Positions 57,294 through 63,593 of a stretch of DNA of 64,000 bases are shown here, in pieces. This stretch comes from an uncultured Hyphomicrobiales bacterium (GTDB lineage Bacteria; Pseudomonadota; Alphaproteobacteria; Rhizobiales; Beijerinckiaceae), in NCBI GenBank assembly GCA_903861645.1, contig CAIOVE010000005.1:1-64000 (forward strand), in the 5' to 3' direction. Positions within the stretch are counted from its first letter, which is position 1. Every line of letters starts with the position of its first letter. Position numbers and translations under genes: made by a program. The notes beneath the pieces are model-generated. The model was not told the origin of the DNA, made no database searches, and saw nothing but the letters and a program-made list of their open reading frames with translations.

Positions 57294-57995
57294 ATGCGCG
57301 CCGATGGCCTCCGCTGGATCGGCGCCGCGGAAATGGCCGCGCCGCGTTTCGACGCGGCCATGGCGGTGGCCGGCGTTTTCGATCTGCGCGATCCCGCCCT
57401 CGCCGGCCTTCCGACGCTACCGCCCACGGCGAGCGACATCCTCGATGAAGGTCGTCCGCTCGCGGGGCGGCGCGATCACTTTCGCGCGCGCCGCGCGCTG
57501 ACGCGGCATCTCCTGGCCCGCTGGCTAGGCCGCGCGCCGGAAAACGTCGTCGTCGCCCATGACGCCGCGGGGGCGCCGCGCGTGTTGGCGCCGGACAATG
57601 GCGCTTTTGTCTCGGTGGCGGCGCGCGGTCCCATCGCGGCCATCGCCGTCGCCGCCACGCCCATCGGCATCGACATCGAGCCGGTCGAGACGCCCCGCGA
57701 GCCCGTGTGGACGGTTCTGCATCGCGACGAACGCGCGGCCATAGCGGGCGCGTGGCGAGATGGCGATGACGCGCCGTTTCGCGACACATGGATCGCCAAG
57801 GAAGCGTGGCTGAAGGCGCTGGGCGCGGGCCTGCGCCGGGATCCCGCCGGGGTTTTGATCCGGCGCGATGGCAAGAGCGGGTTCACAATCGTGGATAATA
57901 GCGACCCGCGACAACTTGCACTCAGCGCCTTGCGCACCGTGGCGATGGGCGATGCGACGATCCGCTGCGCCGTGGCGATCCTCGCCGCGCCCTAG
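57294..57995 (+). CDS. 4'-phosphopantetheinyl transferase superfamily protein
   Basis: 233 residues. The magnesium site GIDIEPV (D127, E129) and the WIAKEAWLKALG motif (W166 to G177) identify a Sfp/AcpT-type enzyme that loads phosphopantetheine onto carrier proteins. The first conserved motif is weak: the segment equivalent to the histidine motif reads FVSVAARG. Such enzymes usually serve secondary-metabolite or alternative carrier proteins. Its TAG stop shares a CTAG with the opposite-strand mtnA stop. Confidence 0.85.
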   Translation: MRADGLRWIGAAEMAAPRFDAAMAVAGVFDLRDPALAGLPTLPPTASDILDEGRPLAGRRDHFRARRALTRHLLARWLGRAPENVVVAHDAAGAPRVLAPDNGAFVSVAARGPIAAIAVAATPIGIDIEPVETPREPVWTVLHRDERAAIAGAWRDGDDAPFRDTWIAKEAWLKALGAGLRRDPAGVLIRRDGKSGFTIVDNSDPRQLALSALRTVAMGDATIRCAVAILAAP

Positions 57996-59092
57996 CCGCC
58001 GACCACGCGGTCGGGGAACATCGCCGCCAGCGCGCCGGCCTCCGCCGCGCAGACGCCGCGTTCGGTGATGAGGCCGCTCACCAGCCGCGCCGGCGTGACG
58101 TCGAACCCATGATTGAGCGCCGGGCTGCCCTCCGGCGTCACGCGCACGGTCTCCAGCCGACCCTCGCGCGTCATGCCCGTGAGATGCGTGACCTCCTCCT
58201 CGCCGCGGATTTCGATGGGGATTTCGGCCCCGTCGGCGATGGCGAAGTCGATCGAGGGCGAGGGCGCGGCCACGTAGAAAGGCAGATCGTTGTCGCGCGC
58301 CGCCAGCGCCTTCAGATAGGTGCCGATCTTGTTGCAGACGTCGCCATTCGCGGTGACCCGATCCGTGCCGACGATGACGCAATCCACCATGCCGTTGCGC
58401 ATGAGATGGCCGCCGGCGTTATCGACGACGATGGTGTGCGGCACGCCGTGGTTGCCGAGTTCCCACGCCGTCAGCGATGCGCCCTGATTGCGGGGCCGCG
58501 TTTCGTCCACCCACACATGCACGGGAAGGCCGGAATCATGCGCCTTGTAGATGGGCGCGGTGGCCGTGCCCCAGTCGACGGTGGCGAGCCAGCCAGCGTT
58601 GCAATGGGTGAGAATATTGAGCCGCTCGCCCGGCGCCTTTCGCGCGGCGAGAGCGCGCAGGATCGCCAGCCCGTGATCGCCGATGGCGCCGTTGATGGCG
58701 ACATCCTCCTCGGCGAGTTCATTCGCCGCGGCCAGCGACGCCGCCGACCGCGCGTCGGCTGGCAAGGGCCGCAGCAGGGCCGCCATGCGCTCCACCGCCC
58801 AGGCGAGATTGATGGCGGTTGGCCGCGCCGCGGGCAGACGCGCCGTCGCCTCGGCGAGTCCCGCGTCGCTGGCGTTGACCCGCATGGCCAGCGCCATGCC
58901 ATAGGCCGCCGTCGCGCCGATCAATGGCGCGCCCCGCACCCACATGTGACGGATGGCGTCGATGGCGTCGTCAAGGGTTTCCAGTTGTCGCGTCGCGAAC
59001 CGATGCGGCAGGAGCGTCTGATCGATGACGACGACGGAGCGGCCATCCGCGTCGAGAAAAACGCCGCGACGGGCTTGTCCATTCACCAGCAT
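57992..59092 (-). CDS. mtnA: S-methyl-5-thioribose-1-phosphate isomerase
   Basis: 366 residues. MtnA converts methylthioribose 1-phosphate to methylthioribulose 1-phosphate in the methionine salvage pathway. Signature segments are IRHMWVRGAPLIGATAAYGM, the catalytic-cysteine LTHCNAGWLATVDWGTA, VDETRPRNQGASLTAWEL and the catalytic aspartate in CVIVGTDRVTANGDV. ATG 59092. Other salvage genes are not present nearby, and no SAM riboswitch was visible in the leader. Confidence 0.95.
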   Translation of the reverse strand: MLVNGQARRGVFLDADGRSVVVIDQTLLPHRFATRQLETLDDAIDAIRHMWVRGAPLIGATAAYGMALAMRVNASDAGLAEATARLPAARPTAINLAWAVERMAALLRPLPADARSAASLAAANELAEEDVAINGAIGDHGLAILRALAARKAPGERLNILTHCNAGWLATVDWGTATAPIYKAHDSGLPVHVWVDETRPRNQGASLTAWELGNHGVPHTIVVDNAGGHLMRNGMVDCVIVGTDRVTANGDVCNKIGTYLKALAARDNDLPFYVAAPSPSIDFAIADGAEIPIEIRGEEEVTHLTGMTREGRLETVRVTPEGSPALNHGFDVTPARLVSGLITERGVCAAEAGALAAMFPDRVVGG

Positions 59093-59222: not shown

Positions 59223-60557
59223 ATGCGCCGCATCATTCTCGGCGCCCTGGCTGGCGGACTGGCGCTGGTCGCCGCGACCGCCGCCAGTGTTTACTGGTAC
59301 CAACGCCCGACCGTGTTGCGGGTGGGCGTCGCGCGCGACAGCGAGGACCAGAAGGTCATGGTGGCGACCGCGCAGGTCCTGTCGCGCGACCGCGAGAACG
59401 TCCGCCTGCGCGTCATCGGTCTCGACAACCCCAATTCGGCGGCGGCGGCCTTCGAGGCCGGCCAAGTTGATCTGGCCGTGACCCGCAGCGACATCAACAT
59501 GCCGAAATCGGCCGAAACCGTGGCGATCCTCAGCAGGAGCGCGGCGCTCGTCATCGCGCCGGCCGCTTCGGCGATCGTCGGCGTCAACGACCTCAAGGGC
59601 AAGCGCATCGCCGTCGTCGTGCCCCGCCCCGAGGCGACCGCCAATCCCCGACTGCTCGACTATATCCTGTCGCGCTACAATCTGGCCGGCGATCTGACCA
59701 CGCGCCTGCCCCTGACCCTGAGCGAGTTGCCGGCGGCGCTGGCGGACAAGCGCGTCGACGCGGTTTTCGCGGTTGGCCCGCCGGCGTTCGGCCCGATGAT
59801 GGACGTGGTGGCGATGGTTGGCGCCGCGTCCGATGGTCCGGTGAATTTCATACCCCTGAGCGAAAGCCGGGCGATCTCCAGATTATCGCCGACGCTGGAA
59901 TCCTTCGAGGTCGCCCGCGGCGCCTTTGGCGGCGCACCGCCGCGGCCGGCGCGCGACATCACCACCATCAGCGTGAGCACGCGCCTGATCGCGCCAGGCG
60001 CGCTGCGTGATACGCTCGTTTCGAATATCGCCCGCGTGATGTTCACGCAGCGGCCGGCCATCGCGGCGGCCGCGCCTTCCGCCAACCTGATGGAAGCGCC
60101 GCCAACGGACAAGGACGCCGCGTTGCCGACCCATCCCGGCGCCGCCGCGTGGATCGACGGCGAGGAGGAAACCTTTCTCGATCTATATGGCGATTACTTC
60201 TATATCGGCGCGATGGTGTTGAGCGTCATCGCCTCGGCGATCGCCGCCGTCGCCAGCCGCGTTTCAGCCGAGGGCCACGCGCGCGTCGAAACCCAGTTTG
60301 AAAGCCTGCTGGGGCGCTTGCTCGAATATATCTCCCGCGCGCGCGAGAGCCAGTCGCGCGCCGAGCTGGACGTGCTGGAGCGCGAGGCCGACGCCCTGCT
60401 CGCCGAGGCGTTGCGGATTGGCGGGGGGCGCGGTCTCGATACGCACAGGGTGGCGGCGCTGGGGTTGGGCCTCGATCAGTTGCGAGACGCCATCATGGCG
60501 CGGCGCATGACCATCGACATGGCGGGCGAGGCGCGGCCGCTGGAACGAACTCCATGA
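59223..60557 (+). CDS. TAXI-family TRAP receptor with C-terminal membrane segment and coiled-coil tail
   Basis: 444 residues. The N-terminus is a membrane-spanning signal anchor (about 5-25). The TAXI binding domain follows: VLRVGVARDSEDQKVMVATA, VDLAVTRSDINMP, LKGKRIAVVVPRPEATANP. Unlike ordinary TAXI receptors it ends with a second hydrophobic segment (about 325-345) and a charged, helical tail of about 100 residues (RVETQFESLLGRLLEYISRA and on) that looks like a coiled coil in the cytoplasm. ATG 59223 has an ideal ggaggt. It overlaps the next gene by ATGA. No TRAP permease is encoded nearby, so it may be a sensor or scaffold of the operon. Confidence 0.85.
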   Translation: MRRIILGALAGGLALVAATAASVYWYQRPTVLRVGVARDSEDQKVMVATAQVLSRDRENVRLRVIGLDNPNSAAAAFEAGQVDLAVTRSDINMPKSAETVAILSRSAALVIAPAASAIVGVNDLKGKRIAVVVPRPEATANPRLLDYILSRYNLAGDLTTRLPLTLSELPAALADKRVDAVFAVGPPAFGPMMDVVAMVGAASDGPVNFIPLSESRAISRLSPTLESFEVARGAFGGAPPRPARDITTISVSTRLIAPGALRDTLVSNIARVMFTQRPAIAAAAPSANLMEAPPTDKDAALPTHPGAAAWIDGEEETFLDLYGDYFYIGAMVLSVIASAIAAVASRVSAEGHARVETQFESLLGRLLEYISRARESQSRAELDVLEREADALLAEALRIGGGRGLDTHRVAALGLGLDQLRDAIMARRMTIDMAGEARPLERTP

Positions 60558-61276
60558 TGGCGGGCGCGGAAATTCACGCCGTTTTCGACGTGCTCGCCTG
60601 GCTCGCCGCGGCGGCCATGGCTTTTTTTGTCGCGCGCTGGCGACCTCTGTCCTTTCCCGTGACGGCGGCGGCGCGTCAATCCTATTACGCGACGCTGGTC
60701 GTGGGGTCGGCCATCGGCGCCTACCTGTTCGGAACGCTGAACCTGTGGGCGAGCGGGATGCCTGGCGTCGCGCGCTCCATCGAGGGCGCGATCTTCGGCG
60801 GCGTCTGCGCGGTCGAAATCTGGAAACGCGCGACCGGACAGCCGGCGCGCACCGGCGCGCGCTACGCCGCGCCGCTCGCCATCGGCGTGGCGGTCGGACG
60901 CATCGGCTGCTTTCTCTCGGGCGTCGAGGATTTCACTTACGGCCTCCCATCCGACCTGCCCTGGGCGCATGATTTCGGCGACGGCGTCATGCGCCATCCC
61001 GTGCAGCTTTACGAAAGCCTCGCCATGGCCGCCTTTCTCGCCGTCTATCTTTGGAAGCTCGCGCGACGCGACGCCCTCTGGACGTTGAACGGATTCTATA
61101 TCGCCGTCGGCTTTTACGGCGCGCAGCGCTTCGTCTGGGAATTCATCAAGCCATATGGGCCCATCGTCGGCCCCTTCACGGTGTTTCATTTCCTGTCGGC
61201 GGCGCTCGTCGTTTACGCCGCGGCGATGGCGTGGACTGGCGCGCCGACGGGCGCGCGCGCTACCATGAACGCGTAA
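60554..61276 (+). CDS. Lgt-family (prolipoprotein diacylglyceryl transferase-like) membrane protein
   Basis: 240 residues with about seven hydrophobic segments. The region VGRIGCFLSGVEDFTYG (about 114-130) and RHPVQLYES (147-155) align with Lgt, but the Lgt signature G-R-x-G-N-F-x-N-G-E is altered to GRIGCFLSGV, and the segment around E77 (SIEGAIFGG) aligns with the catalytic-histidine loop FHGG of true Lgt, with E in place of H. It is therefore a paralogue, perhaps acting on other lipid or head-group substrates. Start overlaps the TAXI gene, and the radical SAM gene follows after 25 bases. Confidence 0.85.
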   Translation: MMAGAEIHAVFDVLAWLAAAAMAFFVARWRPLSFPVTAAARQSYYATLVVGSAIGAYLFGTLNLWASGMPGVARSIEGAIFGGVCAVEIWKRATGQPARTGARYAAPLAIGVAVGRIGCFLSGVEDFTYGLPSDLPWAHDFGDGVMRHPVQLYESLAMAAFLAVYLWKLARRDALWTLNGFYIAVGFYGAQRFVWEFIKPYGPIVGPFTVFHFLSAALVVYAAAMAWTGAPTGARATMNA

Positions 61277-61301
61277 CCGGGCTCGCCCATTGGAGAAACG
61301 G

Positions 61302-62717
61302 ATGACCGCCCACCCCGCGCGCAAGGCCAAGCCCTATGTCTTTTATGGGCAAACGACATCCCTCTGCGATGTCTGCCTCGCGATGGTTCCGGCGAAAATT
61401 CTCATTCAGGGCGATGACGTCTTCTACGAAAAGCGTTGCCGCGAGCATGGCGTCCGCAAGGCGCTCGTCTCGACCGACGCGGCCTTTTTCAAGTGGCAGC
61501 GCGCGTTTCTGAAACCCGGCGACCGCCCGCTGAAACTGTCGAGCCATACGGAATATGGTTGCCCCTATGATTGCGGCCTGTGCCCCGACCATGAGCAACA
61601 TTCCTGCCTCGCGCTGGTCGAGATCAACGAGCATTGCAACCTGACCTGTCCGGTCTGCTTCGCCGATTCCTCGCCCGCGCGCGAAAAACATCTGCCGCTC
61701 TCGACCATCGAGCGCATGTTCGACGCCATCGTGGAGGCGGAGGGCGAGCCCGACCTCGTGCAGATTTCCGGCGGCGAGCCGACGTTGCACCCCCAATTTT
61801 TCGAGGTGCTGGAACTCGCGCGCTCCAAGCCCATTCGCCACGTGATGCTCAACACCAACGGCCTGCGCATCGCGCAAGAGCCGGACTTCGTGGAGAAACT
61901 GGCCGAAAACAAGAAGGGCTTCGAGGTCTATCTGCAATTCGATTCGTTGCGGCGCGAGGCGCTGATGGACATTCGTGGCGCCGACCTGCGCCGCGTGCGC
62001 CAGCAGGCGCTCGAAAACCTCGAGAAGCACGGCATTTCAACCACGCTCGTTTGCGTGGTGAAGAAGGGCGTCAACGACGACGAGATCGGCGAGATCGTCA
62101 AATACGCGCTCGAATGGAAATGCGTGCGCGGCGTTACGTTCCAGCCGGTGCAGGACGTCGGCCGCAACGAACATTACGATCCCGCGCGCGACCGCATCAC
62201 CCTGTCGGACATTCGCCGTCGCATCGTCGAGGAGTCCGGCGTGTTCGGCGCGCGCGACATGATTCCCCTGCCGTGCAATCCAAGCTCGATCACGATCGGC
62301 TATGGCGTGCGCAACGGCAAGTCCGTCGCGCCGGTCACCTCGCTGGTCGCCAGCGAGGAGTTTCTGTCGGAAATTCCCAACGCCATTTCCTTCGAGAAAT
62401 ATCCCGAGCTGCAAAAGCGCATCTTCGAGCTTTTCTCCCTGTCGACGGGCCCCAGCGACGCCGCCGAGCGCGTCGCCGCGTTGCTCTGCTGCCTCCCTTC
62501 CGTGCCCGTGCCGCAAGGTCTTTCCTACGAAAACATTTTCCGCGTCACGGTCATCGAATTCATGGACGCGCATAATTTCTGCGTCGCGAACGTCAAGCGC
62601 AGTTGCGCCCATTTCGTCACGCCAAACGGCCAGATCATTCCCTTCGAGACCTACAACCTGTTTTACCGGAACGGAAAAATCGACGCGATCCGCAAGCGCT
62701 TGGAGGCGAATCGATGA
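61302..62717 (+). CDS. Multi-cluster radical SAM protein, tetraether synthase (Tes)-like
   Basis: 471 residues. Cysteine sets: C22 and C25 with C46 (rubredoxin-like), C87, C91, C94 and C102 (auxiliary cluster), and the SAM motif C112-x3-C116-x2-C119 in HCNLTCPVCF; SGGEPT follows. The C-terminus has C427 and C435 in FCVANVKRSCAHF followed by TPNGQIIPFETYN, matching the end of archaeal Tes proteins, which join lipid chains by C-C bond formation and hold an iron centre and several 4Fe-4S clusters. ATG 61302 with ggaga was chosen over TTG 61290. Bacterial relatives of Tes exist; the true substrate here is unknown. Confidence 0.82.
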   Translation: MTAHPARKAKPYVFYGQTTSLCDVCLAMVPAKILIQGDDVFYEKRCREHGVRKALVSTDAAFFKWQRAFLKPGDRPLKLSSHTEYGCPYDCGLCPDHEQHSCLALVEINEHCNLTCPVCFADSSPAREKHLPLSTIERMFDAIVEAEGEPDLVQISGGEPTLHPQFFEVLELARSKPIRHVMLNTNGLRIAQEPDFVEKLAENKKGFEVYLQFDSLRREALMDIRGADLRRVRQQALENLEKHGISTTLVCVVKKGVNDDEIGEIVKYALEWKCVRGVTFQPVQDVGRNEHYDPARDRITLSDIRRRIVEESGVFGARDMIPLPCNPSSITIGYGVRNGKSVAPVTSLVASEEFLSEIPNAISFEKYPELQKRIFELFSLSTGPSDAAERVAALLCCLPSVPVPQGLSYENIFRVTVIEFMDAHNFCVANVKRSCAHFVTPNGQIIPFETYNLFYRNGKIDAIRKRLEANR

Positions 62718-62944
62718 GCGAGGCCTCGACGAGGAACGGTTGCGCGGCGACCTTCCCGATCGTCATGGGCCTGTCGATGCTCGCGCCCGGCGGCCTGTGC
62801 ATCGTCCTGGCCCTGCCCGACCCCAAACGCCATCGTGCTCGGCGCGCCGCCGATCCTGCTGGGCGCGCTGTGCATATTCGCCGCCGTCAAGCCACGGCGC
62901 GGAAATCAGGCATGGCGTCGTTCGCCCAAAATACCGCTCCATGA
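62714..62944 (+). CDS. Small membrane protein, probably frameshifted
   Basis: 76 residues as read. The first part has a hydrophobic helix (FPIVMGLSMLAPGGLCIVLAL). After GAC CCC AAA at about 62819-62827 the reading becomes arginine-rich, whereas the +1 frame from there continues as AIVLGAPPILLGALCIFAAV, a likely second membrane helix. That looks like a one-base insertion in an A-run, or a sequencing error. It overlaps the radical SAM stop by ATGA and its own stop overlaps the next start by ATGA. Function unknown. Confidence 0.45.
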   Translation: MSEASTRNGCAATFPIVMGLSMLAPGGLCIVLALPDPKRHRARRAADPAGRAVHIRRRQATARKSGMASFAQNTAP

Positions 62945-63240
62945 GCGACCTACCCCCTCCTGGAGCGCTTCGTCGCATTGGCGGACTCGCGGGCGTCGCC
63001 GGCGGTTTGATGCTGGTGATCGCCGGCCTGCTGATGATCGCGCCCCTGATGGGCCTGCTGGCGACGCTGTTCATCCTTGGCCTCTGCACCATGAGCGTCA
63101 ATCCGGGCGCGGGTCTGGATTCCTCGACATTCGCGCTCATCGCCATCGTTGGCTGCGCGATCATCGGCCTGCTAGGCTGGGTCGGGATCGCCCTCATTCG
63201 CAAGGGCCTGCGCGCCATGAAAAAGAGGTCGCCCTCATGA
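62941..63240 (+). CDS. Small two- to three-helix membrane protein
   Basis: 99 residues with hydrophobic segments at about 15-38 (LAGVAGGLMLVIAGLLMIAP), 40-55 and 65-88 (FALIAIVGCAIIGLLGWVG), and a basic C-terminus KKRSPS. ATG 62941 overlaps the previous gene (ATGA), and its stop overlaps the next start. No family is recognised. Its linkage to the Lgt-like and radical SAM genes suggests a subunit or accessory role. Confidence 0.6.
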   Translation: MSDLPPPGALRRIGGLAGVAGGLMLVIAGLLMIAPLMGLLATLFILGLCTMSVNPGAGLDSSTFALIAIVGCAIIGLLGWVGIALIRKGLRAMKKRSPS

Positions 63241-63506
63241 ATCCGCCGCCCCCGCCCCGCCCGCCGCTTTCGCCCGGCGGCGTCATCCTCTTCCTGCTGG
63301 GCGGCGTGCTGCTGGTCTTTCCCGGCGGCTGTTCGCTGTTAGCCATTTTCGCGACCCTCGCGGATCGGCTGGCCCACCCCGCGCGCGGCGCAAACTACGA
63401 CGGCGTCGTCTACGTCGTCTCCGGCTTCGGCCTGGTGATCGCCCTCTTCGGGTTTTTCATCGCCCGCGCCGGCTGGCGGTGGCGGCGGCCCGTCCAGCGA
63501 CCGTAA
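63237..63506 (+). CDS. Small membrane protein with proline-rich N-terminus
   Basis: 89 residues: MNPPPPPRPPLSPGG, then a hydrophobic helix (VILFLLGGVLLVFPGGCSLL), a polar loop and a second helix (VVYVVSGFGLVIALFGFFIA). ATG 63237 overlaps the previous stop (ATGA). It is the last gene of the operon; a terminator follows at 63556. Not recognised. Confidence 0.58.
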   Translation: MNPPPPPRPPLSPGGVILFLLGGVLLVFPGGCSLLAIFATLADRLAHPARGANYDGVVYVVSGFGLVIALFGFFIARAGWRWRRPVQRP

Positions 63507-63555: not shown

Positions 63556-63593
63556 CGCGGCAAGCGGGAAATTGCCGCGCGTTTTCCTTTTTC
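63556..63593 (+). terminator. Rho-independent terminator after the lipid-operon candidate
   Basis: Stem CGCGGCAA (63556-63563) with TTGCCGCG (63572-63579), eight-base loop, then CGTTTTCCTTTTTC. It closes the operon from 59223 and separates it from typA. Confidence 0.83.

Follow-up and report, generated by a model that had tools for sequence, protein, structure and literature searches.

This study examined a candidate lipid-modifying locus of an uncultured Hyphomicrobiales bacterium, located in a 64,000-nucleotide stretch of DNA (the window; positions 1 to 64,000 of contig CAIOVE010000005.1, assembly GCA_903861645.1). Six genes occupy positions 59223-63506 on the plus strand and encode a TAXI-like protein, an Lgt-like protein, a radical S-adenosylmethionine (SAM) protein and three small membrane proteins (Table 1). 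Four of the five junctions are 4-base overlaps, and a 25-base gap separates the Lgt-like gene from the radical SAM gene. A preliminary description, made from the sequence alone, had proposed a lipid-modifying operon here; its coordinates were correct, and its account of genes running in a single direction, mostly with 4-base overlaps, was borne out. The radical SAM gene and the Lgt-like gene form the conserved core of this set, which may act on membrane lipids.

Table 1. Features of the locus in window coordinates, with the evidence for each
Feature	Position	Strand	Evidence
TAXI-like gene	59223-60557	+	PF16868, 49.1 bits; hydropathy
Lgt-like gene	60554-61276	+	PF01790, 70.6 bits
Radical SAM gene (Tes/GDGT-MAS- and TrsS-related)	61302-62717	+	PF04055, PF23545, predicted fold
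SM1, small membrane protein open reading frame (ORF)	62714-62944	+	APGGLC at helix end; frame apparently broken
SM2, small two-helix membrane protein	62941-63240	+	cysteines in ILGLC and IVGC
SM3, small two-helix membrane protein	63237-63506	+	FPGGC
Possible intrinsic terminator	63556-63579	+	8-bp stem and T-rich tail, 3' of the last gene

Pairing of the radical SAM and Lgt-like genes

Relatives of the locus were fetched with the radical SAM sequence alone. In the near-genome search only six true homologues were used (L032-L037), the remaining matches, at E 1e-9 or weaker, being other radical SAM proteins; in the search of one phylum group (the G452 group, taken as Planctomycetota) the best 30 of 51 matches were taken as loci. 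This assignment is based on the titles of L021, L023 and L024, whose gene order is also that of L022. Five entries were set aside, namely the locus of the window itself and four duplicates, which left 59 loci with a homologue for comparison. An Lgt-like gene adjoins the radical SAM gene on the same strand in 47 of them, upstream in 33 and downstream in 14, and 25 of the 33 upstream copies lie within 10 bases of the radical SAM gene or overlap it. The linked loci belong mostly to Alphaproteobacteria and the G452 group. For loci fetched by the radical SAM sequence alone, this recurrence exceeds chance. The tree distances of 46 gene pairs are also correlated (r 0.776; highest value among 2000 shuffles 0.275), uncorrected for shared ancestry.

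Among the 12 loci without an Lgt-like neighbour, L010, L028, L029, L031, L113, L115 and L120 have fewer than 500 bases on one side, and L037, L121, L122, L126 and L128 lack it despite at least 500 bases on each side. In the genome of L126 (G674), an Lgt-like match lies about 4 kb from the radical SAM gene on the same strand. Three of the 21 unfetched G452-group matches adjoin an Lgt-like match by coordinates (G579, G663, G516); the 18 others, mostly 27-39% identical, have no adjoining Lgt-like match at 130 bits. The Lgt profile was built from members of these loci and thus contains linked copies. In L026 (7992-9370), the radical SAM gene beside the Lgt-like gene is split across two frames.

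The distribution of the two genes was also compared across genomes. The near genomes numbered 61 with the own genome counted, including 37 of the genus; close radical SAM homologues were found in G000, G011, G015 and G017 of the genus and G058 of the order, and a distant one in G031. At class level, 6 of 385 genomes (own included) have a homologue, and in the G452 group the gene occurs in 41 of 294 genomes at E 1e-40. In that group, 28 of the 29 genomes with an Lgt-like match of at least 130 bits, a cut chosen after the list was seen, also have the radical SAM gene, against the 41 of 294 overall; G738 is the sole genome of the 29 lacking it. Within the class, five genomes match the window Lgt-like protein above 100 bits. 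The radical SAM gene is present in four of them, and an apparent broken remnant in the fifth, G386; the divergent Lgt-like genes of G261 and G431 (L067, L068) escaped this search. Two loci titled Candidatus Kuenenia stuttgartiensis (L020, L022) have a G+C content of 0.65-0.67, far higher than in this species, and the titles may be wrong.

Ten records of a plasmid collection contain the radical SAM gene. In four of the six examined (Persicobacter psychrovividus, Mycobacterium avium, M. branderi and Nonomuraea gerenzanensis) it has an Lgt-like neighbour, and in the other two (Mycolicibacterium vanbaalenii and Halorarius halobius) a methyltransferase instead. Two further records, from Indioceanicola and Cellulomonas, were found with the Lgt-like query. 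The Indioceanicola protein has the HGGL and NGE motifs typical of ordinary Lgt, and the 8.4 kb viewed include no gene annotated as radical SAM. A close-relative scan of the viral_contigs collection found no relative.

The radical SAM protein and its Lgt-like partner

The radical SAM protein scored over the cut-offs of PF04055 Radical_SAM (85.6 bits) and PF23545, a zinc ribbon named after HMPTM (60.6 bits). By sequence, its best solved relative is the archaeal glycerol dialkyl glycerol tetraether (GDGT) enzyme GDGT-MAS (Tes, MJ0619; 7tol), which joins the tails of membrane lipids, with an E of 1.9e-67, or 5.9e-113 with a 40-row profile. Its predicted structure (predicted local distance difference test score, pLDDT, 87.7) matches 7tom over its whole length (template modelling score, TM, 0.82 over 503 columns), and fold matches other than GDGT-MAS (7tol, 7tom) reach a TM of only 0.28-0.42 among the 50 listed. 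The protein contains a rubredoxin site (C22xxC25x20C46xxH49), an N-terminal cluster (C87x3C91x2C94 with H97) and the radical SAM cluster motif (C112x3C116x2C119); these three of four metal sites reproduce the spacing of MJ0619 in PMC9433317. No membrane helix is predicted by hydropathy, and the protein is therefore taken as cytosolic.

The fourth site is changed. In GDGT-MAS, the substrate carbon is bound to the C-terminal cluster through a C-S bond, and activity persisted in an M439A variant (PMC9433317). The equivalent of Met439 in the window protein is Ile418, and the cysteine of the FC motif is replaced by Glu or Asp (FE/FD). Other cysteines are conserved, namely C325 (64/64 rows), C396 (51/61), C397 (53/61) and C435 (62/63), the 64 rows including four duplicate loci. 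On this sequence pattern, C325, LLCC396/397 and C435 could rebuild the C-terminal cluster. The protein might be a tetraether-type synthase that joins the acyl tails of two phospholipids into membrane-spanning lipids, with the Lgt-like protein delivering or positioning phosphatidylglycerol; this is the idea of the preliminary description with no part for the TAXI-like protein. The predicted fold and three metal sites are consistent with such a role, as is the proposal of bacterial Tes homologues for branched GDGTs (PMC8941075, PMC11868695). The altered ligands argue against it, although the conserved cysteines and the activity of the M439A variant soften this point; the bacterial homologues, Planctomycetota among them in PMC11868695, are also unconfirmed candidates in both papers. 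This explanation is considered somewhat unlikely. Homologues are also noted in bacteria not known to make biphytanyl chains (PMC9433317).

The best NCBIfam model for the protein is that of the radical SAM (seleno)protein TrsS (NF045646; 321.2 bits, cut-off 490), followed by Tes (NF045702; 268.6 bits, cut-off 450). The name Tes-like, given in the preliminary description, fits the sequence and predicted fold of the protein, whereas the score below the Tes cut-off and the altered C-terminal site weigh against a plain Tes role. The profile search suggested in that description led to TrsS and Tes without reaching either cut-off, and neither has a known non-lipid product so far as examined. The TrsS score, together with the Pfam name of the N-terminal ribbon, could nevertheless hint at non-lipid small-molecule chemistry, either pterin methylation or the arsenic or selenium chemistry of the TrsS/DVU_1556 branch. 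In L028 and L037 a methyltransferase gene lies by the radical SAM gene, its best models being DVU_1556 (about 135 bits, cut-off 155) and an arsenite methyltransferase. The window branch, in contrast, has the Lgt-like gene where the methyltransferase would be, no methyltransferase was found among the six window proteins scanned, and the TrsS cut-off was not reached. The pterin assignment of MJ0619 found no corroboration in PMC9433317, where the pocket of this enzyme was judged unsuited to pterin; on these findings, a pterin methylase, taken from the HMPTM name, was set aside. Non-lipid chemistry as a whole appears very doubtful.

The Lgt-like protein belongs to PF01790 LGT (70.6 bits, cut-off 24.9) and falls far below the NCBIfam Lgt equivalogs (best 31.8 against a cut-off of 334; TIGR00544 27.4 against 118.9). 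It is not the housekeeping Lgt, because a separate Lgt is present in its own genome (249 bits, against 68.7 for the Lgt-like protein) and all 18 genomes searched have a near-full-length Lgt. In 17 of these a second, weak match (58-73 bits) also occurs, and it shares a contig with the radical SAM gene in all 13 genomes checkable by contig. Genome G458 (L028) has four Lgt matches, none of this weak type.

Lgt-like proteins from the window, from Persicobacter and from 44 of the 47 loci (the three others, being short, were dropped), 46 in total, were aligned with 11 housekeeping Lgt proteins. The latter are those of 20 loci that passed an ORF filter requiring HGG- and N..E-type motifs, and their uniformity is thus partly built in. 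In E. coli Lgt, Y26, H103, R143, N146, G154 and R239 are required (PMC13251419); R143 and R239 bind and activate phosphatidylglycerol, H103 is critical and proposed for the acceptor, and R143, Y235, R239 and E202 belong to the reported glycerol pocket (PMC4728403). The equivalents of Y235 and R239 are kept in 46/46 Lgt-like proteins and that of E202 in 45/46; R143 is Arg in 44 and Lys in 2. E243 is Glu in 36, Asp in 9 and Gly in 1, R246 is Lys in 39 and Arg in 7, G154 is kept in 39/46 and E151 is mixed. The equivalent of H103 is never His (Val 25, Glu 6, Leu 5, Ala 4, Met 4, Phe 1, Ile 1), that of N146 is Cys in 46/46, and that of Y26 is mostly His (His 37, Tyr 5, gap 4). The window protein has His, Glu and Cys at the positions of Y26, H103 and N146, and keeps R143, Y235, R239 and E243.

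These residues indicate a donor side that is retained and an acceptor side that is changed, which may point to a different acceptor. The earlier suggestion that the Lgt-like protein binds or transfers a phospholipid is compatible with the kept phosphatidylglycerol-binding residues. Compared with E. coli Lgt (5azb), the Lgt-like set shares PF01790 and the four glycerol-pocket equivalents, but differs at H103, N146 and Y26 and coexists with a housekeeping Lgt. H103 is not absolutely conserved among Lgt proteins, and N146 is Cys in more distant ones (PMC13251419); MSMEG_5408, a second Lgt homologue of M. smegmatis presumed to have low Lgt activity, has Y26H and N146C like the Lgt-like set (PMC13251419). 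The split between Lgt-like and housekeeping proteins has a support of 0.895 after rooting and 1.0 on the tree as built, with the post-rooting monophyly test false. The predicted Lgt-like model has a pLDDT of 93.4.

Small membrane proteins and a proposed lipid module

Small membrane ORFs were defined as those of 50-170 amino acids that have two or more hydrophobic segments and lie no further than 1.3 kb downstream of the radical SAM gene. They were found in 38 of the 59 loci, that is, in 35 of 47 with an Lgt-like gene and 3 of 12 without. The three (L010, L115, L126) include two cut by contig ends (L010 and L115). In 23 of the 38 loci the small ORF begins with a 4-base overlap. None of 12 small membrane proteins scanned matched Pfam over a cut-off, and SM2 and SM3 matched no family above a curated cut-off. 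For the first half of SM1, matches are found among the small ORFs that follow the radical SAM gene in L011. A frameshift is apparent in SM1 (62714-62944), the frame of the 62835 ORF encoding its second hydrophobic segment; either decay or an assembly error could account for it.

A set of 53 small proteins was obtained with a second helix rule, ORFs touching the Lgt-like gene being dropped (32 of 47 loci, the window and two mycobacterial plasmids). Of the 53, 47 have a cysteine predicted to sit in the outer half of a helix. In total, 61 helix cysteines are outer and 22 inner, with Gly, Ala, Ser, Thr or Pro at -1 or -2 in 51/61 outer against 9/22 inner; the topology was predicted solely from hydropathy and charge, and the proteins are not mutually independent. 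The motifs are FGGGC, LPGLC and PSGLC in the alphaproteobacterial type, LNAAC in the G452 group and AGICTGLNP in mycobacteria. L014 and L015 each have four small membrane proteins in a row, each protein with a GLC- or GGC-type cysteine. Some small proteins of L105, L106 and L126 have an N-terminal CxxC...CxxC ribbon-like stretch.

In a first control for the cysteine motif, the motif occurred in 27 of 44 small ORFs inside the target stretch against 4 of 19 outside (Fisher p 0.005); those four also adjoin an Lgt-like or radical SAM gene, which leaves 0/15 on an after-the-fact reading. Under a stricter start and motif rule, a motif ORF lies downstream in only 17 of the 47 loci with an Lgt-like gene. 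In a residue-shuffle test, 29 of 36 loci were positive, whereas 500 shuffles averaged 14.6 and peaked at 26; the window entry is a spurious long ORF.

Lgt reportedly acts on the periplasmic side of the membrane (PMC4728403), so the predicted cysteines would be within reach of the Lgt-like enzyme. These cysteines, and the several paralogues per locus, are also what a protein-directed module would display, in which the Lgt-like protein lipidates the small proteins and the radical SAM protein links or alters their cysteine or backbone. The peptide-modifying enzymes SuiB and SkfB are the next fold matches after GDGT-MAS. The closest fold by far is nevertheless a lipid enzyme, the cysteines are predicted near the outer face whereas the radical SAM protein is taken as cytosolic, and Persicobacter has no small ORF, so that this possibility is judged quite improbable.

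The favored reading, held at about an even chance, is that the gene set is a conserved bacterial membrane-lipid-modifying module composed of a Tes-like enzyme, a repurposed Lgt paralogue and small cysteine proteins. The analysis itself shows the families, the predicted radical SAM fold, the kept and changed residues, the linkage of the genes and the predicted cysteine position, whereas the lipid substrate and every reaction step are inferred. The radical SAM enzyme would use 5'-deoxyadenosyl radicals to attack an unactivated C-H on a lipid alkyl chain; tail-to-tail coupling of lipids is possible. GDGT-MAS, for comparison, binds two lipids in hydrophobic pockets (PMC9433317). The Lgt-like integral membrane protein would bind, and probably transfer or present, a phosphatidylglycerol-like lipid, and would not act as the lipoprotein Lgt. 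The small proteins, with a cysteine near the outer face, are a likely partner of the Lgt-like protein and might be its acceptor. In a bolder version, which is considered unlikely, the Lgt-like protein would load a (diacyl)glyceryl group from a phospholipid on a helix cysteine near the outer face of the small proteins, and the Tes-like enzyme would then couple or alter the lipid tail. The Cys at the Asn146 position, invariant in the Lgt-like proteins examined, might act in this version as a catalytic relay. The acceptors would be the module's own small multi-helix membrane proteins instead of lipobox lipoproteins, and a membrane protein would end with a cross-linked or membrane-spanning lipid.

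Several observations weigh against the favored module. Besides the scores below the TrsS and Tes cut-offs and the altered C-terminal site, a Foldseek search of the Lgt-like model against the PDB gave no significant match, E. coli Lgt being absent among the 50 listed, so that the Lgt assignment rests on sequence. In a sister branch, a methyltransferase takes the place of the Lgt-like partner of this radical SAM family. In Persicobacter (L129), no plus-strand ORF of at least 60 amino acids was found between the end of the pair (7389) and 8714, and P. psychrovividus looks like a carrier of a two-gene form. The Lgt-family protein of the Cellulomonas plasmid (L157, 3743-4531) has GRLGC, with Cys at the N146 place, whereas no radical SAM gene is annotated within the 8.4 kb viewed; it counts against strict linkage. 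Genes for CcdA, glutaredoxin and redoxin neighbour this Cellulomonas gene.

GDGT-MAS/Tes resembles the radical SAM protein in whole-length predicted fold and cluster motifs; unlike GDGT-MAS/Tes, the window protein has a linked Lgt-like gene and accompanying small membrane proteins. The role of bacterial Tes homologues is open in PMC8941075, PMC9433317 and PMC11868695, and a recurrent Lgt-like partner changed in a fixed way, together with small cysteine proteins, makes this role testable as a pathway. The term "lgt" is absent from the texts of PMC8941075, PMC11868695 and PMC11186832. A literature search limited to open journal papers found no title on the pair or the trio, in line with the earlier remark that no description of the set together was known. 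The linkage of this set across distant bacteria suggests a so far undescribed route by which membrane lipids are altered or attached to proteins; if the lipid-on-protein version is true, it would be a new kind of protein lipidation.

Accessory gene and locus boundaries

The TAXI/NMT1-like protein has predicted membrane helices at residues 4-22 (N-terminal) and 326-344 (C-terminal), the latter followed by a C-terminal tail. It exceeds the PF16868 cut-off of 27 and remains below that of TIGR02122 (74.7 bits, cut-off 84.35); the family scan of six window proteins placed PF16868 and PF09084 over their cut-offs. The preliminary description made it a membrane scaffold or sensor of the system. Among the loci searched (L099-L128 being left out), its homologues adjoin the pair only in the close relatives L009/L034 and L011/L033, and it was rejected as a core part. 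The TAXI-like protein is a local accessory outside the conserved core; of the gene order whose conservation had been in question, the Lgt-like/radical SAM pair was retained and the TAXI-like gene dropped. On the plasmid of Mycolicibacterium vanbaalenii (L130, 481-6339), a further radical SAM gene and a gene for a PhnD/SsuA-type binding protein lie close to the sister radical SAM/methyltransferase pair, an arrangement faintly reminiscent of the TAXI/NMT1-like gene in the window.

A promoter search of the locus found no sigma-70-type site. The terminator had been called strong. Its stem and T-rich tail are present and it is plausible, yet not above chance; the strength was overstated, because terminator-like sites in the region are not enriched (4 found, 4.3 expected from shuffles) and the 61-nt fold has a z of -0.16. 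The flanking genes appear unrelated to the locus: the one before it (57992-59092, minus strand) resembles mtnA, and the one after it (from about 63692) resembles typA/bipA.

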